A DNA stretch of 64,000 nucleotides from an uncultured Pseudomonadota bacterium (lineage in GTDB: Bacteria > Pseudomonadota > Gammaproteobacteria > Steroidobacterales > Steroidobacteraceae), in assembly GCA_903884235.1 (NCBI GenBank), contig CAISEB010000049.1, positions 1 through 64,000 of the forward strand, in the 5' to 3' direction. The translations under genes were made by a program, and so were the position numbers. Numbering within the stretch: the stretch's first letter is position 1; every line of letters begins with the position of its first letter. Below, in pieces: positions 4,168-21,776 of this stretch. The notes below the pieces were generated by a model. The model saw only the letters and a program-made list of their open reading frames with translations. It was not told the origin of the DNA and did no database searches.

Positions 4168-4563
4168 TCACATCCCGGTCACGGATTCCGGCTCGATCTT
4201 GAAAAGCACCCGCCGCTCGCCCGGCTGCCGATATGGATACGGCGTACCGAGATACTTCTGGGCCATGTGCTCGATATGCGCATCGGCACCCTCCTCCGTA
4301 CGCTCCGCAACGTGGCCGCGCACTTCGATGTAGCGGTACGGATTCTCGGGATCCGTGATCGACAGCGCGACGCGCCCGTCGCGGACCAGGTTGCGGTCCT
4401 TCTGGCGACCGACGGCCGTGTTGAACAGCACGTACCGACCATCGAATTCGATCCACACCGGCGTCACCTGCGGACGGCCATCCGGCATCAGCGTCGCGAG
4501 GTGCGCGAATGACTTCTTGTTGAAGAGGTCCACCAGGCCGTCCGGGATTACGTGGCTCATCAT
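4168..4563 (-). CDS. PPOX-class flavin/F420-dependent oxidoreductase fold protein
   Basis: A 131-residue protein of the pyridoxamine-5'-phosphate-oxidase-like split barrel family. The N-terminal part (HLATLMPDGRPQVTPVW) and the DGRVALSITDP segment are typical of the PPOX class 'F420-dependent TIGR03618' type. It probably binds FMN or F420 as a dimer and reduces an unknown substrate. A close paralogue lies at 21381-21776. RNA from the metal-sensor gene upstream (start 5025) could read into it, but a gap of nearly 180 bases makes an operon uncertain. Confidence 0.85.
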   Translation of the reverse strand: MMSHVIPDGLVDLFNKKSFAHLATLMPDGRPQVTPVWIEFDGRYVLFNTAVGRQKDRNLVRDGRVALSITDPENPYRYIEVRGHVAERTEEGADAHIEHMAQKYLGTPYPYRQPGERRVLFKIEPESVTGM

Positions 4564-11072: not shown

Positions 11073-12052
11073 GCGCGGACGCGCGTCCCGCGCACGAGGT
11101 CGAACTCGTTCGGCAGCGGTTCGCCGCGTTGCCACGCGACGAGGTTGCGGACCAGGATCTCGATTGTCGCGTCGTTGACCGTATCCGGATCGTCCGCCGA
11201 CATGTGTGGCGTGACGACGAGGTTCGGGGTCGTCCACGCCCGGTACGCCGGTGGCAGCGGTTCCTCCTCGAACACGTCGAGCACGGCACCAGCGAGCCGA
11301 CCGGCCTCGAGCAGGTCACACATCGCCGCTTCGTCGATCGTGCGACCACGGCCTACGTTGACGATGCCCGCGCGTGCGGGCAGCAGCGCCAGGCGGCGCC
11401 GGTCGAGGAGGTGGTGCGTCGATGGCGAGTGCGGCAGCGCCAGGGCAACGAAATCCGCCGTCGGGAGCACGGCGTCCAGTGCGTCGAGACCGACGACGAC
11501 CTCGCAGTCCGGATGCGGCCGCGGAGTCGATCGTACCCCCGTGACGCGCATCCCGACCTTGCGGGCCAGCGTCGCCGTCGCGCCGCCGATCGCGCCGAGG
11601 CCGACGACCACGAGGTGGCCACCAGCGAGCGTGCGTCCAACCGCGGGGATCCAGCGATGCTCCGCCTGGGCGCGGGCGAGTGCCGGCATGCTGTTCTTGA
11701 GCATCAGCATCCCCATCACGACGTATTCCGCGGCCTTGAGCGCATGGGCGCCACTGTTGTTGAGCACGATGACCCCGGGCGGCACCCAGTCGTAGGGCGC
11801 GAGGCGATCGAGTCCCGCCCACGTCACGAACAGGAGTCGCAGGTGCGGTGTCGCTAGCGGCAGGAGGTCCCGGATGCCCATCGGCGAGGCGACCAGCACC
11901 TCGACCTGCGGCGCGTGGATCCGGAACTGCGCAGGATCGGACCCGAACAGCGGCCTGCCCTCGGGCCGAAGGCCCTGCGCGTGACGCTGCCATTCGCCCT
12001 CGGTGAGCGGGGCCGCGGCATCGGCGCTGTGATTGTGAAAATAGATCTGCAT
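11069..12052 (-). CDS. D-2-hydroxyacid dehydrogenase (NAD-dependent)
   Basis: A 327-residue enzyme. The ATG at 12052 gives an N-terminus starting MQIYFHNHS; the frame is open upstream but not convincing. The Rossmann motif GLGAIGG lies at about residues 165-171. The catalytic Arg is in NVGRGRTID, the Glu in VLDVFEEEPLP and the His in VTPHMS. These are the residues of the D-isomer-specific 2-hydroxyacid dehydrogenase (phosphoglycerate/glyoxylate reductase-like) family, which reduces 2-keto acids with NADH or NADPH. It is translationally coupled to the EamA transporter gene, so the pair may make and move one compound. Confidence 0.9.
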   Translation of the reverse strand: MQIYFHNHSADAAAPLTEGEWQRHAQGLRPEGRPLFGSDPAQFRIHAPQVEVLVASPMGIRDLLPLATPHLRLLFVTWAGLDRLAPYDWVPPGVIVLNNSGAHALKAAEYVVMGMLMLKNSMPALARAQAEHRWIPAVGRTLAGGHLVVVGLGAIGGATATLARKVGMRVTGVRSTPRPHPDCEVVVGLDALDAVLPTADFVALALPHSPSTHHLLDRRRLALLPARAGIVNVGRGRTIDEAAMCDLLEAGRLAGAVLDVFEEEPLPPAYRAWTTPNLVVTPHMSADDPDTVNDATIEILVRNLVAWQRGEPLPNEFDLVRGTRVRA

Positions 12053-12390
12053 CGGGGGCGACGTCCTCGCATCAGGTTCCGGACGATACCAGCGCATCGG
12101 GGTTGGCGACGAGGCCGCAGCCGGCGTCCCGTGGACCAGCCTTGCCGCGCACCGTAGCCGGTGAAGTTTCGACGTGAATTCAGCGACTTAACAATACGAA
12201 GCCGACCCTGCACGGACGACCTGCGCGACGGGCGAGGAATTGACCGACACGCTCGACCCTCCGCGAGCGCGAGGGCACCGCGGCAGCGTGCACCTGCACA
12301 CCGAGGCGAGGCGGGCAGATCCGGGTAAACTGCCCCTGCCTGGGATCGCCGCACGGCGACCCGCCCATCCCCCGTCCAGGCTCAGGTTGC
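12053..12390. other. Divergent intergenic region before the phytochrome operon
   Basis: 338 bases separate the dehydrogenase gene and bphO. No open frame looks real. The segment around 12175-12200 (GACTTAACAATACG) is relatively AT-rich and TTGACC occurs at 12239-12244, but no well-spaced sigma-70 promoter could be assigned by eye. This region should hold the control elements of the bphO-bphP-bphR operon. Confidence 0.4.
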
Positions 12391-13038
12391 GTGAGTGTCC
12401 GTCCCGTGAACATCGAGCTTGACGCACCCCTCCCCTGCGTGCAGGAAACACCCGCGCAGCCGAGCGCGATTGCGGCGCTGCGCGCCGCGACATGGCCGAG
12501 CCACCAGCAGCTCGAGAAGCGCATCGACGTGAAGTCCCGCTTCGGCAACCTGGTCGCCTATCGGGCGCATCTCGAGAACCTGTACGGCTTCTGCGCTGCA
12601 CTCGAGGCGCGCGTGGCGCCCGACACGTTCGGTGACGCCCTCCCCGACTACCCCTCGCGCCGCAAGCTCGTGCTGCTGGCACGCGACCTCGCCTCGCTCG
12701 GCCTCGGGCCCGACACGATCGCGACGCTGCCATGCTGCGGGGACATGCCGGCGATCGACTCCATCGCCAGCGCGTTCGGCTGCGTCTACGTGCTCGAAGG
12801 CGCGACGCTCGGTGGTCGGACGTTGCTGCCGGTCGTCGCGGCCCGCGTCGGCGTGACGCCAGACCGGGGAGCCGCCTTCCTCGCCAGCTACGGTGACGGC
12901 GTCGCGACGATGTGGAGTCGCTTCGGCGCCGCGCTCGATGCATGGTGCCGCGATCCGAAGCGTCGTGCCGCCGCCGAGTCGACCGCGGTCGCCACCTTCG
13001 ATGCGCTGCAGAGATGGCTGTGCCGGGTGCCAGGATGA
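12391..13038 (+). CDS. bphO: Biliverdin-producing heme oxygenase
   Basis: A 215-residue protein starting at GTG 12391. LRAATWPSHQQLEKRID (residues ~30-46) contains the proximal heme-ligand histidine (His38) in the place expected for bacterial BphO heme oxygenases, and the length is right. The function is opening of heme to biliverdin IX-alpha, CO and Fe, supplying the chromophore of the phytochrome encoded next. Its TGA (13036-13038) overlaps the ATG of bphP, so the two are translationally coupled. The GC-rich, helix-forming remainder shows no further motif. The family assignment rests on the His region plus the neighbour. Confidence 0.88.
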   Translation: MSVRPVNIELDAPLPCVQETPAQPSAIAALRAATWPSHQQLEKRIDVKSRFGNLVAYRAHLENLYGFCAALEARVAPDTFGDALPDYPSRRKLVLLARDLASLGLGPDTIATLPCCGDMPAIDSIASAFGCVYVLEGATLGGRTLLPVVAARVGVTPDRGAAFLASYGDGVATMWSRFGAALDAWCRDPKRRAAAESTAVATFDALQRWLCRVPG

Positions 13039-15314
13039 GCTCGCCTGCAGTCCGCTTCGGCGAGGCGGACCTGACGACGTGCGATCGGGAACCCATCCAC
13101 ATCCCGGGGTCGATCCAGCCGCACGGCATCCTGCTCGTGCTCGATCGGCGCACCGGGATGGTCGAGCAGACCGCCGGCGACACGCGCTTCCTGCTGGGGC
13201 GCGGGACCGCGCAGCTGGTCGGCGTCGCGCTGGCGAGCATCCTTGAACCCGAAGCCGAAGCGTTCGTGCGCGCGTGCCTCGACGTGCCGGCGCGGGCCGT
13301 CGCCCCGTCCGTGCGTCTTGGCATCCGCTCGCGGAGTGGTGCGCTGCCGCTCGACCTCACGATCCACGCCGACGCGACGACGGCACTGCTCGAGCTCGAA
13401 CCTGCCCGGCGCACCGCGACGACCGCCGGCGATCCGATCGCCGTGCTGAAGTCGCTGCTCGCGGCCGTGCAGTCGACCGCCAGCGTAGATGAATCCTGCG
13501 CCGCGGCAGCCATCGCGCTGCGCGCCGCGACCGGCTTCGACCGGGCGATGGTGTACCGCTTCCAGCCGGATGACAGCGGCGTGATCGTCGCCGAGGACAA
13601 GGTCGCGCACCTCGAGTCCTACCTCGGGCTGCACTACCCCGCTTCGGACATCCCGGCGCAGGCGCGTGAGCTGTACCGTCGCAACTGGCTGCGGGTGATC
13701 CCCGACATCGACTACGTGCCGGCGCCGCTCGAGCCGCCGGCGAATGACCGGCTCGAGAAGCCGATCGACATGAGCCACTGCTCGCTGCGCAGCGTGTCGC
13801 CCATCCACATCGAATACCTGCGCAACATGGGCATCAGCGCCTCGCTGTCCGCCTCCATCGTCTGCCAGGATCGGCTGTGGGGCATGCTCGTGATGCACAA
13901 TTATTCGCCGCGCCACGTGTCGGCCGACCTGCGCGTCGCCTGCGAGACGTTCGCGCAGGTGTTTTCGCTGCACGTCGAGGCGAAGACGCAGGCCGAGACG
14001 TCGGCGCTGCGCCTCGAGGCGCGTCGGATCCGCGAGGAGCTCATCGGCCGCCTCAACGGTGTCGTCGACGTTGGGCGCCTGATCGCGGAGTGGGACCTGC
14101 TGTCCTATGTCGATGCCCGCGGCGCCGCCGTGCTGCTCGACGGTGTGATGCACCGGGTCGGCGAGACACCATCTCCCGCGCAGATCGGGCAGCTGGCGCA
14201 GTGGCTGACGAGTCTCAACCAGCCGAGATTCACGAGCGACCAGCTCTCGGCCCAGTTCGCTCCGGCCGCGGAGTATCCGGAGCTGGCAAGCGGCCTGCTC
14301 GCGGTCGGCCTCTCCCGCGAGCCACGGGACTACGTGCTGTGGTTCCGGCCCGAGATTGGCCAGACCGTGCGCTGGGCCGGCGACCCCTCGTCATCGGTCA
14401 AGTCCGGCCCGCTCGGCTCGCGGCTGACGCCGCGCGGCTCGTTCACGGAGTGGCTCGAGGTCACGAAGGGAACGTCGGCGCCGTGGTCGATGGTCGACAT
14501 CGAGGCCGCCGAGGCCCTGCGGGTCGTCCTGCTCGAGGTCGTGCTGCGGATGGTCGACCTCGAGCACCGCGAACGGGCATTCGCCGAAACCCGCGCGATG
14601 GCCGACGAACTCGAGGTCCGCGTCGTGCAACGCACCGAGCAGCTGCGACGCCTCGCCGCCGATCTCGAAGCCGCCGAGGAACGCGAGCGTCGCCAGATCG
14701 CGAGTGACCTGCATGACGACCTGGGCCAGACGCTTGCCGCGGCACGCATCCGCCTCACCGGCCTTCTCGGCCATGAGCGCGACGACGTGCGCGCGATGGC
14801 CGACAAGGTCGGCGACCTGATCGACCGCGCCACCCTGTCGACACGTTCGCTCGCCTCGCAGCTAGCACCGGCCGTGCTGCACGAACTCGGGCTGTCGCCC
14901 GCGCTCGACGTCCTCGGCGAGGAGATCGAGCGCACCTTCGGCCTCAAGGTCACCGTCACGGACGACGGCCTGCCGAAGCCCCTGTCCCACGAGTTGCGCT
15001 CGATCCTGTATCGCGCCGTTCGCGAACTGCTCATCAACGTGGCCAAGCACGCGAAGGCCGACCGCGCGCTCGTCGAATGCGTCGCGAAGGATGGCCAGGT
15101 CGTGGTGCGAGTCGCCGACCGGGGCGCGGGCTACGATCCGCTGAAGGAGCACGACAGCACACGCCGCGGGCAGGGGCTCGTGACGCTGCGCGAGCGCCTG
15201 TCGCTCGTCGGTGGCACAGTCGAAGTCAATACGGCGCCGGGCGCCGGCACCATCGTCCTGCTCGCCGCGCCGCTCGCGGCCAGCGAACCCCACCCGTCGG
15301 AGCGACGTCGATGA
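13035..15314 (+). CDS. bphP: Bacteriophytochrome sensor histidine kinase (NarL-type kinase core)
   Basis: A 759-residue red/far-red photoreceptor. The domain order is an N-terminal PAS with the biliverdin-binding Cys16 (LTTCDREPIH); a GAF domain with PASDIP at ~202-207 and conserved LRSVSPIHIEYL at ~251-262; a PHY domain with the tongue motif PRGSF at 467-471; a coiled linker at ~505-555; and a HisKA_3-type dimerisation domain with phospho-acceptor His560 (SDLHDDLGQTL). Last is an HATPase with N-box Asn668 and G-boxes DRGAGYDP and GQGLVTL. Most phytochromes use a HisKA or HWE core, so the NarL/DesK-type core is notable. It fits the LuxR-type regulator encoded next, whose ATG overlaps this stop codon. 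Confidence 0.95.
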   Translation: MSSPAVRFGEADLTTCDREPIHIPGSIQPHGILLVLDRRTGMVEQTAGDTRFLLGRGTAQLVGVALASILEPEAEAFVRACLDVPARAVAPSVRLGIRSRSGALPLDLTIHADATTALLELEPARRTATTAGDPIAVLKSLLAAVQSTASVDESCAAAAIALRAATGFDRAMVYRFQPDDSGVIVAEDKVAHLESYLGLHYPASDIPAQARELYRRNWLRVIPDIDYVPAPLEPPANDRLEKPIDMSHCSLRSVSPIHIEYLRNMGISASLSASIVCQDRLWGMLVMHNYSPRHVSADLRVACETFAQVFSLHVEAKTQAETSALRLEARRIREELIGRLNGVVDVGRLIAEWDLLSYVDARGAAVLLDGVMHRVGETPSPAQIGQLAQWLTSLNQPRFTSDQLSAQFAPAAEYPELASGLLAVGLSREPRDYVLWFRPEIGQTVRWAGDPSSSVKSGPLGSRLTPRGSFTEWLEVTKGTSAPWSMVDIEAAEALRVVLLEVVLRMVDLEHRERAFAETRAMADELEVRVVQRTEQLRRLAADLEAAEERERRQIASDLHDDLGQTLAAARIRLTGLLGHERDDVRAMADKVGDLIDRATLSTRSLASQLAPAVLHELGLSPALDVLGEEIERTFGLKVTVTDDGLPKPLSHELRSILYRAVRELLINVAKHAKADRALVECVAKDGQVVVRVADRGAGYDPLKEHDSTRRGQGLVTLRERLSLVGGTVEVNTAPGAGTIVLLAAPLAASEPHPSERRR

Positions 15315-15946
15315 AGATCCGAGTCGTCCTGGCCGACGATCACCGCATGGTGCGCGAGGCCCTGCGCGAGGTGCTGACGAAGGTCGAGGACATCGAAGTC
15401 GTCGGCGAGGCCGGTGATGGCGCGGAAGCGCTGGCGATGGCGACCGACCTCGCGCCGGACGTGATCGTCCTCGACATCGGCCTGCCGGACCAGAATGGTA
15501 TCGAAGTCGCAACCAAGCTGCGCGACGCGGGTAGCGAAGCGAAGGTCGTGGCGCTGTCCGCCTTCTCCGACAAGCGGTTCATCACGGCGATGGTGAAGGC
15601 CGGTGCGCTCGCCTACATCACCAAGGGCTCGGCAGGCACCGAGCTCGTGCTCGCGATCCGCGCCGTCGCCGCCGGCCACGGCTACTTCCCGCCCGACATC
15701 GCCGGGGCGCTCGCCGAGGAGATGCGCGAGGGCACGACGGACGATGGCCCGAAGCTCGCGCCGCGCGAACGCGAAGTGCTGCGGTTGCTCGCCGAGGGCG
15801 GGCGCTCGGCGGCAATCGCAGAGGCGATGCAGGTGACGGTCGCGACAGTCGACGTGCACCGACGCAACATCATGCGCAAGCTGGGACTGCGCACGGTCGC
15901 GGAACTCACTCGCTACGCGGTACGCGAAGGGATCGTCGTGCCATGA
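15311..15946 (+). CDS. LuxR/NarL-type response regulator, partner of BphP
   Basis: A 211-residue two-domain regulator. The receiver domain (1-120) has the acidic pair Asp9/Asp10, phospho-acceptor Asp55 in VIVLDIGLPD, a Ser in ALSAFSD, and a Lys in YITKGS. The C-terminal LuxR helix-turn-helix (~148-205) has LAPREREVLRLLAEG, then ATVDVHRRNIMRKLGLRT. The ATG overlaps the bphP stop (ATGA), so kinase and regulator are coupled and almost certainly a cognate pair: light state controls phosphorylation and DNA binding. The targets are unknown; the promoters before the AerR-like gene (17034-17062) and motA (19178-19204) are candidates. Confidence 0.93.
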   Translation: MKIRVVLADDHRMVREALREVLTKVEDIEVVGEAGDGAEALAMATDLAPDVIVLDIGLPDQNGIEVATKLRDAGSEAKVVALSAFSDKRFITAMVKAGALAYITKGSAGTELVLAIRAVAAGHGYFPPDIAGALAEEMREGTTDDGPKLAPREREVLRLLAEGGRSAAIAEAMQVTVATVDVHRRNIMRKLGLRTVAELTRYAVREGIVVP

Positions 15947-15955
15947 TCCGCGCGT

Positions 15956-15977
15956 CCCGGCCGGTCCACCGGCCGGG
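15956..15977 (+). terminator. Perfect GC hairpin 1 downstream of the bph response regulator
   Basis: CCCGGCCGG pairs perfectly with CCGGCCGGG across the four-base loop TCCA, ten bases after the stop codon. There is no T-run, so it may pause or attenuate transcription, or protect the 3' end, rather than act as a simple intrinsic terminator. Confidence 0.5.
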
Positions 15978-16002
15978 CGTTCGGGCCCTGAGGAACAGGA
16001 AC

Positions 16003-16025
16003 TCCGCCGGCCACAGGCCGGCGGA
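16003..16025 (+). terminator. Perfect GC hairpin 2 downstream of the bph response regulator
   Basis: TCCGCCGGCC pairs perfectly with GGCCGGCGGA across the three-base loop ACA. It lies 25 bases after hairpin 1, and again without a T-run. Together the two hairpins separate the bph operon from the PAS protein gene and may lower read-through. Confidence 0.5.
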
Positions 16026-16127
16026 CCACAGCAGGACAGACATGTCGACGCCGTACATCGGCCCAAGCAGCCCCGAGGCCGCGCCACCTGCGGCCGGGAC
16101 GGGCGACCGTGTGCCCGCGGGGCACCC

Positions 16128-16961
16128 ATGCCGGTGAAGCGGCTCACCCAACTGCTGCGGGCGTTGCGGGTCGCGAAGGACCCGGCGTCGGCGGCGATGT
16201 CGCCCGGGCTCTCGATCGCCGAGCTGTACGACGCATCGCCCGAGGCGACGCTGATCATCGACGCGACGAACGGCACGGTGATCGAGGCGAATCCGGCGAG
16301 CGCGGAACTGCTGTGTCGACCGCTCGAGCGGCTGGTCGGCGGCCCCTGGCTCGGCGCGTTCTCGGCGACGAGCGTGCTCGCGCTCACGAAGCTGGAGTCG
16401 GTGGCGCACGCAACCGGCACCGCCTCGCCGATCCGGGCGGTCCTGCGCGACTCCGAGCGCGAGGTCGACGTCGCGCTCTCCCTCGTGCGCTCGCCGCCGG
16501 CCGAGTTCCTGCTCGCGCACATCACCGCCACGGACGCATTCCCGGCCTCGGGCGCTGCGGCCGACCCGGGCGCGGCGGCGGCCGAATTCCTCGCACGGGC
16601 CGCGGATGGTTTCGTCGTCACGGATCCGGGCCTGAAGATCCTCTACGCCAACCACGCGTTCGCGCGCCTCGTCGGACCCAAATCCTCGGCCGGGGTCGTC
16701 GGCAAGTCACTGACCCGCTGGGTGGAGTTCACCCAGGAGGACATGACGCTGCTGACGCGACAGATGGAGACCCGGGAAGCCGTGTCGGCCATACGCACCT
16801 CGCTGAAATCCAGCGACGCGAAGGCAGCCCCACGGAGGGTCGAACTGACCGCAGTCGCGGTCCCGGACGAGCCCCAGCGCTGCTTCGGGTTCTGGGTCAC
16901 CGATCAGGGTGAGGCCGGCGCAGAACCTGCGTCGGGCCCCGACGTGCGGGGGGAGCCCTAA
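16128..16961 (+). CDS. PpsR-like tandem PAS protein lacking a DNA-binding domain
   Basis: A 277-residue protein with two PAS domains, at about residues 29-135 and 152-260. Their wording resembles the central and C-terminal PAS domains of the photosynthesis repressor PpsR/CrtJ: EATLIIDATNGTVIEANPAS and LERLVG in the first, ADGFVVTDPGLKILYANHAF and VAVPDEPQRCFGF in the second. PpsR is normally about 460-480 residues, with a further N-terminal PAS, a Q-linker and a Fis-type helix-turn-helix at the C-terminus. Here the protein ends in a short acidic Gly/Pro tail and has no such helix. It lies directly after the phytochrome operon. PpsR2 proteins bind bacteriophytochromes in some phototrophs, so a role as a PAS interaction partner or titrating anti-repressor is plausible. 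PpsR homology is judged by eye. Confidence 0.72.
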   Translation: MPVKRLTQLLRALRVAKDPASAAMSPGLSIAELYDASPEATLIIDATNGTVIEANPASAELLCRPLERLVGGPWLGAFSATSVLALTKLESVAHATGTASPIRAVLRDSEREVDVALSLVRSPPAEFLLAHITATDAFPASGAAADPGAAAAEFLARAADGFVVTDPGLKILYANHAFARLVGPKSSAGVVGKSLTRWVEFTQEDMTLLTRQMETREAVSAIRTSLKSSDAKAAPRRVELTAVAVPDEPQRCFGFWVTDQGEAGAEPASGPDVRGEP

Positions 16962-17033
16962 GGGCTCTCCGAAAGGCGCACTGCAGCATTCCGGCCCGGA
17001 ATGCCGACTACCGGTTTTTCGGTATACATAGCG

Positions 17034-17062
17034 TTGACATCTGGTAGTCCAGAGGACTTAAA
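17034..17062 (+). promoter_or_regulatory. Candidate sigma-70 promoter of the AerR-like gene
   Basis: A perfect -35 TTGACA (17034-17039) is followed by a 17-base spacer and CTTAAA (or TTAAAT one base later) as a moderate -10. The surrounding sequence is AT-rich for this genome. It lies about 75-100 bases before the start at 17138. Confidence 0.55.
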
Positions 17063-17130
17063 TCCCCTACGCACAACGACCGGACGAGTCGAGCGGGGCC
17101 CCGGACGTACGGCGCCGCAGGATTTAGGGG
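17059..17130 (+). promoter_or_regulatory. Leader with two mutually exclusive pairings at the ribosome site
   Basis: TAAATCC (17059-17065) can pair with GGATTTA (17120-17126), while the overlapping CCCCTA (17064-17069) can pair with TAGGGG (17125-17130). The second pairing would hide the G-rich ribosome site before the ATG at 17138; the first would leave most of it open. The complementarity is seen directly; a switching role is inference. Confidence 0.35.
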
Positions 17131-17137
17131 GGCCTGG

Positions 17138-17614
17138 ATGATTGGGACGCTGCGCACTGTGATGGCCAGACTGACGGAGGGCATTGCCCGTCGTCGGGCA
17201 GCCCGTCGCCACGCGCGACTGCTCGCGGTCATCGAAGGCCAGATCCTGCCGCGACTCGTGATCGCCACGGGCTCCCAGGTCGCCAACGGACACCATGGCG
17301 CGGACCTGGATCCCACCCCGGAGAACGTCGTCGAACTCGCCCGGCTCCTGATCGAGCATGATCCCTCGGTGGCGAGCGAATACCTGCAGGTCCTGCGCAC
17401 CCAGGGGGCGTCGATCGAGTCGCTTTGGATGCAGCTCGTCGCGCCGACCGCGCGGCACCTGAATCAGCTGGCGTCATCGGGCAGGATCGACGCCCGGCGC
17501 ATCGCGCAGGCGCAGCAAAGCCTCCATACCCTGCTCGACGAGCTCGAGACCCGCCACAGTCGCGAGCGTCCGGTCTCCTCGCAACCGGCGGGCGAGTTCA
17601 GCCACGGCGCATAG
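17138..17614 (+). CDS. AerR/PpaA-like helical protein lacking the cobalamin-binding domain
   Basis: A 158-residue, mostly helical protein. EGQILPRLVIA (33-43) and the segment VVELARLLIEHDP to LWMQLVAPTARHLNQL (64-111) follow the pattern of the N-terminal helical domain of AerR/PpaA photosynthesis anti-repressors (ILPRL..., then LEALRARG..LE.LYLDLLAP.ARRLG). Full AerR continues into a Rossmann-type B12-binding domain with a DxHxxG motif. Here the protein ends about 45 residues after the LAPTAR segment in a polar tail, and the W..D.C positions of the helical domain are absent. It therefore cannot bind cobalamin in the usual way. It lies next to the PpsR-like gene, as aerR/ppaA lies next to ppsR in phototrophs, which supports the call. 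Confidence 0.65.
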   Translation: MIGTLRTVMARLTEGIARRRAARRHARLLAVIEGQILPRLVIATGSQVANGHHGADLDPTPENVVELARLLIEHDPSVASEYLQVLRTQGASIESLWMQLVAPTARHLNQLASSGRIDARRIAQAQQSLHTLLDELETRHSRERPVSSQPAGEFSHGA

Positions 17615-17808
17615 CGCCGGACGCGGGTCCTGGTTCCGGATCCACCGCCCCGGGGACCCGGGTCGCCGCGGAGCATCCCGGTCCCCCGCGCTCCCTGCCG
17701 CCAGCCCCGCGCCAGAACTGTGACGCATTGCGCGCAGCGCGCCGACGCCGCTGCCGACAACAAGGAGTGGCACGCCGCGAATGAAGCCGGCCGGAGCACT
17801 CGACCGTC

Positions 17809-19011
17809 ATGGATGATTCGCAAGTCGCCCTCGCCCGCCAGCCGATCCTGGCGGCCGACGGCACCCTGTACGCCTATGAACTCCTGCACCGCGGCGGGCC
17901 GCGCGAGGACGCCGGCAACGCAGCCTCGCGCAGCGCGCGTGTCGTCTGCGAACTGCTCGGCGCGATCGGCCTGGACCGCCTCGCCGGCGACGCCCGGGTG
18001 TTCGTGAATTTCGAGCAGGAGCTGCTCGAAACCGACCTGCCGACCATCCTCGTCCCCAACCGTTCGGTCGTCGAGATCCTGGAGGACGTCGAGCCGCGCC
18101 CGGCCGTCTTCGCGACGCTCGCTCAGCTGCGCCAGCGGGGCATCGGAATCGCGCTCGATGATTTCGTCCTGCAGGACAACCTGCTGCCATTCCTGCCGCA
18201 CGTCGACTACGTCAAGATCGACATCCTGGAGGCCCGTGAGCAGCTCGAGTCGATCGTGGACATGCTGAAGGAGCATCGGGTACTCCTGCTCGCCGAGAAG
18301 GTCGAGACGCACGAGCAGTTCGAGCGCTGCAAGGCGCTCGGCTTCCATTACTTCCAGGGCTACTACTTCGCGCGGCCCGAACCGATGGCGAAGCGCAGCC
18401 TCGGGGCAATGGAGATCAGCGTCCTCACGCTGATGGCGAGGCTCGAGAACCGCAACGTGACGGCCGCCCAGCTGACCGACACGATCAGCGTCGATGTCGC
18501 CCTCGTCCACCAGATCCTCGTGCTCGCGAACAGCGGCGCGTTCTACCGCGGGCGGCCGATCACCTCGATCCACGAAGCGGTCACGATGCCCGGCCAGAAC
18601 CTCATCCGCCAGTGGGCATCGCTGCTGCTGCTGACGCGCATGGGACTGCACAAGCCGACGGAGCTGCTGAAGCTCGCCGTCACGCGCGCCCGGCTCTGCC
18701 AGACCCTCGGAGCTCCGCACCACGAGCTCGACCCGCAGGAGCTGTTCACGGCCGGATTGCTGTCGATCCTGGATGCGCTGTTCGACAGACCGATGGGCGC
18801 GGTCCTCGAGGCGCTGCCGCTCGCGCCAGGCCTCAAGGACGCACTCTGTGGCCGTTCGACAGACACGCTGGCGACGACGCTGCGCCGGGCGATCGACTAC
18901 GGTTCAGGGGCGTGGGTCAGCGCAGGAACCGCCGCCACCAGCGGGACCGGGTTCGATTTCGAGACCTACCTCGACGCGGTCGAATTCGCGGACAACGCGC
19001 TCTGCGCCTGA
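17809..19011 (+). CDS. EAL-HDOD signalling protein (YuxH-like)
   Basis: A 400-residue cytoplasmic protein with an N-terminal EAL domain (about 1-205) and an HDOD domain (about 205-370). The EAL signature is the YELLHR variant typical of the YuxH/CdgJ group. Several catalytic-type residues remain (VNF, LDDF, VKID, AEKVET, FQGYYF), but loop 6 reads DDFVLQDN instead of DDFGTG, which in this group usually means no c-di-GMP hydrolysis. Such proteins act by protein contacts in motility and biofilm control (CdgJ in Vibrio). It sits between the light-sensing genes and motAB, which fits a link from light signals to motility. A GC-rich imperfect hairpin follows at about 19057-19078. Confidence 0.88.
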   Translation: MDDSQVALARQPILAADGTLYAYELLHRGGPREDAGNAASRSARVVCELLGAIGLDRLAGDARVFVNFEQELLETDLPTILVPNRSVVEILEDVEPRPAVFATLAQLRQRGIGIALDDFVLQDNLLPFLPHVDYVKIDILEAREQLESIVDMLKEHRVLLLAEKVETHEQFERCKALGFHYFQGYYFARPEPMAKRSLGAMEISVLTLMARLENRNVTAAQLTDTISVDVALVHQILVLANSGAFYRGRPITSIHEAVTMPGQNLIRQWASLLLLTRMGLHKPTELLKLAVTRARLCQTLGAPHHELDPQELFTAGLLSILDALFDRPMGAVLEALPLAPGLKDALCGRSTDTLATTLRRAIDYGSGAWVSAGTAATSGTGFDFETYLDAVEFADNALCA

Positions 19012-19459
19012 GACGCGCAACCGGCCACCCCGTACCCCGCTCCACCACTCCAATCCGGGCGTACCCCGGTACGCGCCCGGCACGCAGGCTCGCGGCAGCG
19101 GGGCCTTCGCCGCAGGCCCGCCAACGCCGGCACGCGTCAAAAATGCGACCGACTCGACGCAATTGAGGGCTGGTACGTCAAGGATCCCGAGTCGCGGTCG
19201 ATACCGTCTGTGCGGATTCGTCGTGGCGGGTGGTCTCGAGGGAACCGCGCGACCGAGGCGTTCGTCGACGGCCGCCCAGGTACACGGCATGAGGCAACAC
19301 GATGGCATGAACGCTTCGACCGCGAACTGAACGCGGTGGGATCCCCTCCGGGACCGCGATGCGGATGCCCGGTTCCGTCGGACTTGCCCCGACGGGTTCC
19401 GATCCGCCGCGACGATGTCCCACTGCCCGACCCTTCGGAACTTCCCCAGAGAATCCACC
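19012..19459. other. Long intergenic region before motA
   Basis: 448 bases without a convincing gene. At 19057-19078 a GC-rich imperfect hairpin (GGGCGTACC against GGTACGCGCCC) probably ends EAL-HDOD transcription. A sigma-28-like promoter follows at 19178-19204, leaving an untranslated leader of about 250 bases before motA. I looked for a c-di-GMP-I riboswitch core in the leader and saw none. Confidence 0.5.
19178..19204 (+). promoter_or_regulatory. FliA (sigma-28)-like promoter upstream of motAB
   Basis: TCAAGGAT, 11 bases, then GTCGATAC. The spacing equals that of the sigma-28 consensus TAAAGTTT-N11-GCCGATAA, with 5 of 8 and 6 of 8 matches, and the TCAAG half agrees with the form seen in pseudomonads. 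motAB are classic FliA-dependent genes. The distance to motA (about 250 bases) is longer than usual. Confidence 0.5.
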
Positions 19460-20323
19460 GTGCTCGCAATCATCGGCTCACTGATCGTCCTCGGCAGCGT
19501 GATCGGCGGGTTCCTCATGGGCGGCAGCAGCATCCTGCTGCTCTGGCACCCCCTCGAGGTCGTGATCATCATCGGCGCCGCGCTCGGCGCGTTCCTGATC
19601 AGCAACCCGATGAAGGTCGTGAAGGACTCGTTCCGCGGCGCGATCGGGCTCGTCAAGGGCAGTCGCTACGGTAGCGCGGAGTACGTCCAGCTCCTGAAGC
19701 TGCTGTACGACCTGCTCGTGTTCGCGCGGCGCGAAGGCCTGCTCGGCATCGAGCGGCACATCGAGAACCCAGACAAGAGCGACATCTTCACCAAGTACCC
19801 GACGGTGACTACCGACCATCACATGATGGAGTTCATCACCGACTGCCTGCGCCTGATCGCAGGCGGCAACCTCGACCCCCACGAACTCGAGAGCCTGCTC
19901 GAGTACGAGCTCGAGACCCACCACCACGAGGCGCTGGAGCCCACCCACGCCGTGCAGAAGGTCGCCGACGCGCTGCCCGGCTTCGGCATCGTCGCCGCCG
20001 TGCTCGGCATCGTCCAGACGATGTCGAGCATCGACGGCGCGAGCACCTCCGAGATCGGCCACCACGTCGGGGCTGCGCTGGTCGGCACGTTCCTCGGCAT
20101 CCTCGTGGCGTATGGCTTCGTGGGCCCGATCGCGGCGGCGATGGAAGCGCGCGCAAACGAGGAAGCGAAGGCCTTCGAGGTGGTCAAGATGGCGCTCGTC
20201 GCCAACGTCCGCGGCTACCCGCCGCCGGTTGCAGTGGAGTTCGCGCGCAAGCTGCTGTTCAGCACCGTGCGACCGAACTTCAAGGATCTCGAGCAGGAAC
20301 TGCGCGCCAAGAAGGCCGGGTAG
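19460..20323 (+). CDS. motA: Flagellar motor stator protein MotA
   Basis: A 287-residue inner-membrane protein. The GTG at 19460 is preferred over the upstream ATG at 19415 because it gives the family N-terminus (LAIIGSLIVLGSVIGGFLMGG). Four membrane segments are visible: two near the N-terminus and two at ~155-215 (ALPGFGIVAAVLGIV and GAALVGTFLGILVAYGF), separated by a large cytoplasmic loop with ERHIENP and EYELETHHHEA. With MotB it forms the proton-driven stator that turns the flagellum. motB follows after six bases. Confidence 0.95.
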   Translation: MLAIIGSLIVLGSVIGGFLMGGSSILLLWHPLEVVIIIGAALGAFLISNPMKVVKDSFRGAIGLVKGSRYGSAEYVQLLKLLYDLLVFARREGLLGIERHIENPDKSDIFTKYPTVTTDHHMMEFITDCLRLIAGGNLDPHELESLLEYELETHHHEALEPTHAVQKVADALPGFGIVAAVLGIVQTMSSIDGASTSEIGHHVGAALVGTFLGILVAYGFVGPIAAAMEARANEEAKAFEVVKMALVANVRGYPPPVAVEFARKLLFSTVRPNFKDLEQELRAKKAG

Positions 20324-20329
20324 CCCGGG

Positions 20330-21295
20330 ATGTCGCAGACCGACAAGCGGCCGATCATCGTCGTCAAGCGCAAGCGCGGCGCGGCCGCGCACCATGGCGG
20401 TGCCTGGAAGGTCGCGTACGCCGACTTCGTCACCGCGATGATGGCCTTCTTCATGGTCATGTGGCTGGTCGCCTCGGTCTCGAAGGAGCAGCGTGCGGCG
20501 CTGTTCGAGTACTTCAAGAATCCAAGCATGGAGCAGGGCAAGAGCACGAAGGCGGCGCCGGGCCAGGCCGGCCCGGGTGGCGCCAGCACAGCCGTGATCA
20601 ACCTGCACGGCGGGCTCGATGCACCGAAATCGGCGGATGCGAAGCAGAACGAGGGTCTCGGCAAGGCGAGCAGCGCCGACGAAGCGCGCAAGCTCGCCGA
20701 GGAAGACGAGAAGAAGCAGCTCGAGTCCCTGCAGCAGCAGCTGCGCGAGGCGATCGACAAGAGCCAGGCGCTGGCGCCGTACAAGGACCAGCTGCTGCTC
20801 GACATCACGCCCGAGGGCCTGCGCATCCAGATCGTCGACAAGCTCAACCGGACGATGTTCGAGAGCGGCAGCTCGTCGCTGAAGAACTACACGACGGAGA
20901 TCCTCGTGGAGCTCGCCAAGTACATCAATTCGGTGCCGAACCGCATCAGCCTGACCGGCCACACGGACGACAAGCCGTACGCGGGCCGCAACGGCTACAC
21001 GAATTGGGAACTGTCCAGCGAACGGGCGAACGCGGCCCGGCGCGCCCTCGTCAGCGGCGGGCTGACGGAAGCCAAGATCGCCCGCGTCGTCGGGCTCGCG
21101 GCAGCCGTGCCGTTCATGAAGGCGGATCCGCTCAACCCGATCAACCGCCGCATCAGCATCATCGTCATGACCAAGCATGCCGAAGAAGCCGCGCTCGCAA
21201 CCGATTCTCCGCAGATCGCGCCGGGTGGCGCGGCGGACCCCGCGACGCCGGAGGCGTCAACGGGCGGCGCGCCCGCGGAATCGATCCCCAGATAG
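20330..21295 (+). CDS. motB: Flagellar motor stator protein MotB
   Basis: A 321-residue protein with a basic N-terminus (KRPIIVVKRKR), a single membrane helix containing the proton-carrying Asp32 (AYADFVTAMMAFFMVMW), and a charged helical linker with plug region. A C-terminal OmpA-like peptidoglycan-binding domain (~165-285) has LTGHTDDKPYAG and NRRISIIVM. A Pro/Ala-rich tail follows. It anchors the MotA channel to the cell wall. No other flagellar genes are nearby, so motAB form a detached operon, as in many gammaproteobacteria. Confidence 0.95.
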   Translation: MSQTDKRPIIVVKRKRGAAAHHGGAWKVAYADFVTAMMAFFMVMWLVASVSKEQRAALFEYFKNPSMEQGKSTKAAPGQAGPGGASTAVINLHGGLDAPKSADAKQNEGLGKASSADEARKLAEEDEKKQLESLQQQLREAIDKSQALAPYKDQLLLDITPEGLRIQIVDKLNRTMFESGSSSLKNYTTEILVELAKYINSVPNRISLTGHTDDKPYAGRNGYTNWELSSERANAARRALVSGGLTEAKIARVVGLAAAVPFMKADPLNPINRRISIIVMTKHAEEAALATDSPQIAPGGAADPATPEASTGGAPAESIPR

Positions 21296-21380: not shown

Positions 21381-21776
21381 CTAGCCCATGGTCGTGACGG
21401 ATTCGGGTTCGATCCTGAAGAGCACGCGCTTCTCTCCGGCCTGGCGATACGGATATTTGGTGCCCAGGTACTTCTGCGCCAGGTGGTCGATGTGCGCGTC
21501 GGCGCCCACCTCGGTCCGCTCCGCCACCCGACCGCGCACCTCGATGTAGCGGTAGGGATTGTCGGGGTCGGTGATCGACAGCGCGACTCTGCCGTCGTGA
21601 ACGAGGTTCTTGTCCTTCTGCCGGCCGATCGCCGTGTTGATCAGGACCTGGCGTCCGTCGTATTCACACCAGACCGGCGTGACCTGCGGTCGGCCATCGG
21701 GCATCAGCGTGGCGAGGCTCGCCAGGGCTTTCTTCTTGAACAGGTCGACGAACTTGTCCGGTATCACGTTGGCCAT
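21381..21776 (-). CDS. PPOX-class flavin/F420-dependent oxidoreductase fold protein, paralogue
   Basis: A 131-residue split-barrel protein that aligns with the product of 4168-4563 along its whole length without gaps, from VIPD.VDLF.KK to ...EPESVT. Both keep DGRVALSITDP and the VEGADAH-like loop before QKYLGT.YPYRQ. The clear divergence between them points to an old duplication or separate acquisition. It converges with motB and stands alone. Its substrate and cofactor (FMN or F420) cannot be told from the sequence. Confidence 0.85.
   Translation of the reverse strand: MANVIPDKFVDLFKKKALASLATLMPDGRPQVTPVWCEYDGRQVLINTAIGRQKDKNLVHDGRVALSITDPDNPYRYIEVRGRVAERTEVGADAHIDHLAQKYLGTKYPYRQAGEKRVLFRIEPESVTTMG

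Follow-up and report, generated by a model that had tools for sequence, protein, structure and literature searches.

In the window (the whole stretch of DNA that was analysed, 64,000 nucleotides, bases 1-64000 of contig C49), a bacteriophytochrome operon includes two short proteins, mini-PpsR and mini-AerR, that descend from the regulators PpsR and AerR. They lack the helix-turn-helix (HTH), the N-domain and the docking helix of the former, and the cobalamin domain and the cap residues of the latter. Judging from these losses, neither PpsR-like DNA binding nor AerR-like B12 sensing is expected of the two proteins, which most likely act as protein-interaction parts. The explanation that we prefer over its rivals, with a probability of roughly 45%, is a self-contained red/far-red phytochrome relay built from a duplicated and stripped ppsR-aerR pair. 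We put forward a fuller version more tentatively: a repressor/antirepressor pair would have been duplicated and would have lost the DNA-binding and cofactor domains jointly, giving a phytochrome relay whose own response regulator controls mini-AerR, which is independent of the parent regulators and which has outlived photosynthesis in one species. The module is present in the genome under study (G000; 4.12 Mb, 59 contigs, 95% complete) and in three relatives of the same genus (G006, G010 and G012); at least three of these four genomes are MAGs. The features of the window are as follows.

12391..13038, + strand: hmuO, heme oxygenase (biliverdin supply); PF01126, 45.6 bits against a cut-off of 23
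13035..15314, + strand: bphP, bacteriophytochrome histidine kinase; Pfam PAS_2-GAF-PHY-HisKA_3-HATPase
15311..15946, + strand: response regulator, receiver and LuxR/GerE DNA-binding domain; Pfam Response_reg-GerE
16128..16961, + strand: mini-PpsR, the PAS1-PAS2 part of PpsR, lacking the N-domain, the Q-linker docking helix and the HTH; Pfam, TIGR02040 and alignment
17009..17024, + strand: TACC-N8-GGTA palindrome, putative response regulator site; same gap in the four genomes
17034..17063, + strand: weak promoter-like pair TTGACA-18-TTAAAT, seen by eye
17043-17046, + strand: third GGTA; gap comparison
17138..17614, + strand: mini-AerR, the AerR helical cap, lacking the cobalamin (Rossmann) domain and the Trp/Phe cap residues; identity to the AerR of the same genome and alignment
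17809..19011, + strand: EAL-HDOD protein, a neighbour outside the conserved module; Pfam
19415..20323, + strand: motA, neighbour; Pfam MotA
20330..21295, + strand: motB, neighbour; Pfam MotB

The first three genes overlap by ATGA at 13035-13038 (hmuO/bphP) and 15311-15314 (bphP/response regulator), and the coupling described in an earlier, sequence-only reading of this DNA is borne out by the open reading frames. As predicted from domains, the bacteriophytochrome two-component set is complete here, with a PAS-GAF-PHY sensor bearing a kinase, a heme oxygenase and a response regulator (the last was submitted to Pfam from codon 2). On NF041576, a model with a different output end, BphP scores 360.7 bits versus 1040. 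Full-length bphP was matched in 4 of the 15 genomes of the genus, G000 included, the other three copies being 80, 67 and 65% identical, and hmuO adjoins bphP in all four. Following the usual biochemistry of these families, the heme oxygenase would supply biliverdin, and BphP would sense light and phosphorylate the LuxR-type response regulator.

The mini-PpsR (277 aa) had been read as a PpsR-like PAS pair without HTH, and the profile searches agree. Pfam recognises two PAS stretches and no HTH, and TIGR02040 is matched over positions 138-366 of its 442 (E 8.8e-26), with a score below the whole-protein cut-off of the model (90.9 vs. 275.4 bits). Identity to the genome's own full-length PpsR is 31% (E 9.8e-26), and the best PDB match of a profile made from the four mini-PpsR is PpsR 4hh2 (E 3.5e-17). 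Alignment with 11 full-length PpsR, from which weaker PAS matches in G019, G036, G026:C13 and G010:C8 were left out, places the C-terminal HTH in all 11 and in none of the four mini-PpsR; the N-domain is also missing from all four. Six residues of the Q-linker are named in PMC9144470 for docking to AerR/SCHIC. Among the full-length PpsR, Q133, L136 and Y147 are present in 11/11, Q140 in 10/11, R151 in 9/11 and E144 in 8/11, whereas L136 alone is kept in the four mini-PpsR, the alignment of which is gappy in this region.

The mini-AerR (158 aa) stops after the cap and matches no Pfam family. The full-length AerR of the same genome is 35% identical to it (E 1.7e-9) over the part preceding the B12 domain, as expected of the AerR-like helical protein without cobalamin domain first read from the DNA. 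The kinship proposed for both proteins thus stands, through TIGR02040 and 4hh2 for mini-PpsR and through the genome's own full-length copy for mini-AerR. Confidence in the AlphaFold models is low to middling (pLDDT 68 and 61); the mean of 68 for mini-AerR includes residues 61-140 at about 79-90. Using this model, Foldseek ranked cobalamin-domain structures of CarH/LitR best, with a probability of 1.00 and an E value of only 0.05, and returned no match at E <= 0.001. In the alignment, the B12 cap residues Trp94 and Phe101 are found in 11 and 9 of the 11 longer AerR, respectively, versus none of the four mini-AerR. Thr105, an AerR residue named in PMC9144470, is present in 10 of the longer AerR (Ser in the remaining one) and missing from the four short ones. 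Gln112 is missing as well, but only 6 of the 11 longer AerR have it. The G055 match, with stops, was left out of this alignment, and its G044 and G057 rows are not the copies adjoining ppsR.

We then consider the distribution of the module. The order hmuO-bphP-response regulator-mini-PpsR-mini-AerR occurs in 4 of the 15 genomes of the genus (G000, G006, G010 and G012), the same four that possess a full-length bphP, and no mini was found in the other 11. The conservation of the neighbourhood in relatives, which the earlier reading had left to be checked, is therefore confirmed for the mini pair, tied to the phytochrome two-component system in 4/4 genomes. Among 60 relatives, 13 gave an AerR-like match and 14 a PAS match. 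At the order level, 55 of 396 genomes had an AerR-like match, with certain minis only in the four genomes named above; at the class level, 7 of 369 genomes had a match, with no certain mini except that of G000. The other open frames measure at least 271 aa, except in G396 (156 aa, at a contig end), G554 (104 aa, a partial match) and G055 (104 aa, with stops), most of the order- and class-level frames being sorted by length and not by B12 domain. The mini-AerR frame of G010 was returned as 330 aa with a stop in the order-level search and as 179 aa in the search of relatives. A scan of 84,980 species yielded four loci, one of them an AerR of 307 aa and the other three consistent with G006, G010 and G012. 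No plasmid match was found for mini-AerR. In both trees, which are unrooted, the minis cluster as one group apart from the 11 full-length relatives (100/100).

Such stripped genes might be functionless remnants of a duplicated ppsR-aerR pair. Long branches occur in the mini groups, two mini-PpsR branches being flagged as long in the tree, and mini-PpsR shows the lowest conservation among the module proteins, with 52% identity between G000 and G006. However, both frames are open and free of stops in the four genomes, the gene order is fixed, the same parts have been lost each time and a palindrome is conserved upstream of mini-AerR. Furthermore, hand-calculated dN/dS between G000 and G006 is well under 1, at about 0.37 for mini-PpsR and 0.27 for mini-AerR, both ratios being rough as dS is near 1. 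Decay is thus very improbable. As the set also persists in G006, where photosynthesis seems to be gone, the stripped copies probably have a job of their own. A faster decay of mini-PpsR in G006, as its branch length might indicate (0.78 vs. 0.13), was not upheld by Tajima relative-rate tests between G006 and G000: the 10 tests (five proteins, two outgroups) gave P values of 0.27-1.0, from few (18-78) informative sites.

The palindrome TACC-N8-GGTA lies in the gap before mini-AerR in each of the four genomes, with central 8 bases that differ among them. The second GGTA and a third one after it are 22 nt apart in G000, G006 and G010, compared with 24 nt in G012, in which the palindrome is close to the start codon, unlike in G000 and G006. 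Genome-wide, the pattern has 35 sites in the four genomes (11, 8, 9 and 7), one per genome being in this gap. At this density of about one per 470 kb, ~0.0015 sites are expected in the 684 bases of gap, a figure to be read knowing that the pattern was chosen after inspection of the gap and that G000 and G006 are close kin. A backward-read control pattern has 19, 16, 7 and 9 sites, so that TACC-N8-GGTA is not enriched genome-wide. At a match of at least 7/8, no site was found upstream of hmuO in G000 and G006, in two other gaps of G000 or in the mini-AerR-bchE gap of G012; the window holds six such looser sites. Half-sites of the TACC/GGTA form presumably suit a NarL/LuxR-type regulator, and since the operon encodes one, the palindrome is likely the site of the response regulator, which would bind there and set the level of mini-AerR. 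A consensus promoter scanner detected no promoter in this gap at its threshold, and the gaps between the response regulator and mini-PpsR have no clear shared element. The only exact PpsR box (TGT-N12-ACA) in 12000-20500 falls within the coding sequence of the response regulator. Two other readings of the gaps were dropped: a hairpin, by eye, because loop and stem vary between genomes, and a known RNA, since Rfam gave two matches on 12000-20500, both under the gathering score.

From the missing output domains and the absence of any pigment or reaction-centre gene in the window, the sequence-only reading had suggested an output other than photosynthesis. No pigment or reaction-centre gene is indeed recognised when the open reading frames of the 64-kb window are inspected by eye. 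The genome is nevertheless phototrophic, because its contig C20 carries pufL/M, acsF, and bchE and bchG (both above model cut-off), together with a full-length ppsR (TIGR02040 487.2 bits vs. a cut-off of 275.4) adjoined by a full-length aerR. Two exact matches to the TGT-N12-ACA box lie between bchG and bchE (L026:287-330); they are separated by 8 nt, a spacing described as typical of CrtJ (PMC9144470), and this pair suggests an active PpsR regulon. On the same contig, ~17 kb of genes seemingly unrelated to photosynthesis (by eye) separate bchE from ppsR and split the photosynthesis cluster (L026:2321-19715). The module of G010 is convergent with dxs and acsF, and aerR-ppsR lies about 16 kb further; in G012, it is followed on the same strand by bchE-bchJ, with an exact PpsR box in between. 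As the module adjoins bacteriochlorophyll genes in these two genomes, its output probably includes such genes in the phototrophic members.

The minis might then be dominant-negative, microprotein-like partners of the parent proteins: mini-PpsR would form heterodimers with PpsR that do not bind DNA, mini-AerR would compete with AerR, and the phytochrome would lift or deepen PpsR repression. According to PMC3949515, PAS1 and PAS2 are dimer modules of PpsR, and PpsR without its N-domain shows no DNA binding. Full-length PpsR and AerR are present in three of the four module genomes, the module is next to acsF or bchE in two, and the box pair of G000 points to a PpsR that is at work. However, the loss of five of the six docking residues as fully conserved positions in the minis, and that of AerR Thr105 in 4/4, do not suit such competition, and G006 keeps the module, with no rate change detected, although neither PpsR nor AerR was detected there in full-length form. 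We therefore regard this alternative as unlikely.

G006 also bears on the self-contained relay. Searches of this genome (95% complete) found neither pufLM nor acsF nor full-length PpsR or AerR. A lone bchG remains (L146:1021-1902 on contig C93; 414.8 bits vs. 313), among genes seemingly unrelated to photosynthesis by eye, and it is perhaps the relic of a lost photosynthesis cluster. A DNA search with 20 kb of the photosynthesis region of G000 returned 32 scattered matches, one leading to bchG and none in bchE. The loss of the cluster is likely rather than proven, because the genome is 95% complete and bchG is kept. The five module proteins of G006 contain no stops. A true loss of the cluster would mean that the minis do not act solely via full-length PpsR and AerR. 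In the relay, mini-PpsR and mini-AerR would serve as interaction parts on each other, on BphP and its response regulator, or both, and they would act independently of the full-length regulators in at least one species.

The sequence-only reading had instead proposed that a light-sensing module was re-used for another output such as motility, since an EAL-HDOD protein and motAB follow it, as Pfam confirms in G000. Steering of swimming or c-di-GMP through these neighbours would fit their presence near the module in both G000 and G006, and LAerR of R. capsulatus is described as also activating motility genes (PMC6199135). However, their position relative to the module switches from downstream in G000 to upstream in G006, and they were found near it in these two genomes only. 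The best EAL-HDOD relative of G010 is about 1.07 Mb from the module, and no motA, motB or EAL-HDOD gene was found in the 47 kb around it. In G012, this relative and the module are on different contigs, and the 15.7-kb contig of the module contains none of the three genes; the stretches read around the EAL-HDOD relatives of G010 and G012 are also free of motA and motB. Moreover, all five module proteins are most similar between G000 and G006, so shared neighbours are expected. An output through motility is therefore improbable; the broader idea of re-use fares better, as the module persists in G006, with no rate change detected, in a genome that has no detectable pufLM, acsF or full-length ppsR/aerR. 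Two side observations concern these surroundings: in G006, two EAL-HDOD copies flank motAB (L132:2341-3543 and 6977-8179 on contig C185), and the window of G000 encodes two 131-aa proteins that resemble each other and look pyridoxamine-oxidase-like by eye, at 4168-4563 and 21381-21776.

Finally, we compared the module with known systems. Q-PAS1, a PpsR2 fragment without HTH, is paired with a phytochrome in optogenetics; mini-PpsR differs from it in being natural, in retaining PAS2 and in lacking the Q-linker residues. As in Rhodopseudomonas palustris, where far-red light is described as making BphP1 and PpsR2 bind (PMC6899989), a bacteriophytochrome here stands together with a PpsR-family protein. 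However, BphP1 has a PAS9-HOS output whereas the BphP of the module has a HisKA_3 kinase with its own response regulator, and PpsR2 comprises N, Q-linker, PAS1, PAS2 and HTH whereas mini-PpsR has no N-domain, docking helix or HTH. The four-helix cap and PAS1-PAS2 are homologous to those of AerR-CrtJ in R. capsulatus and AppA-PpsR in R. sphaeroides, as these are described in PMC9144470 and PMC3949515. Unlike these pairs, the minis have lost the cofactor domain, the Trp94/Phe101 cap, the Q-linker docking residues and the HTH. HP1 (Rru_A0625; 181 aa) of Rhodospirillum rubrum is presented in PMC10734443 as AerR/PpaA-like without recognisable cobalamin domain, located next to ppsR, regarded as the PpaA homologue of this species and having effects beyond photosynthesis. 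We liken mini-AerR to HP1 by domain content and context; mini-AerR, in contrast, belongs to a phytochrome operon, where its neighbour is a stripped PpsR, and 3/4 genomes also encode a longer AerR. A cobalamin-less AerR-like protein and a phytochrome-PpsR contact are thus already known. Among the matches listed in a search of the open literature, no paper describes a PpsR without HTH that is paired with an AerR without B12 domain.

If our explanation is true, the PpsR-AerR pair can shed its output domains jointly and live on in a light-signalling operon purely for protein interaction, which would be a natural counterpart to engineered phytochrome-PpsR fragment pairs. The module allows a direct test of what the PAS domains and the helical cap do without DNA or B12, and of whether a phytochrome relay can outlive photosynthesis.
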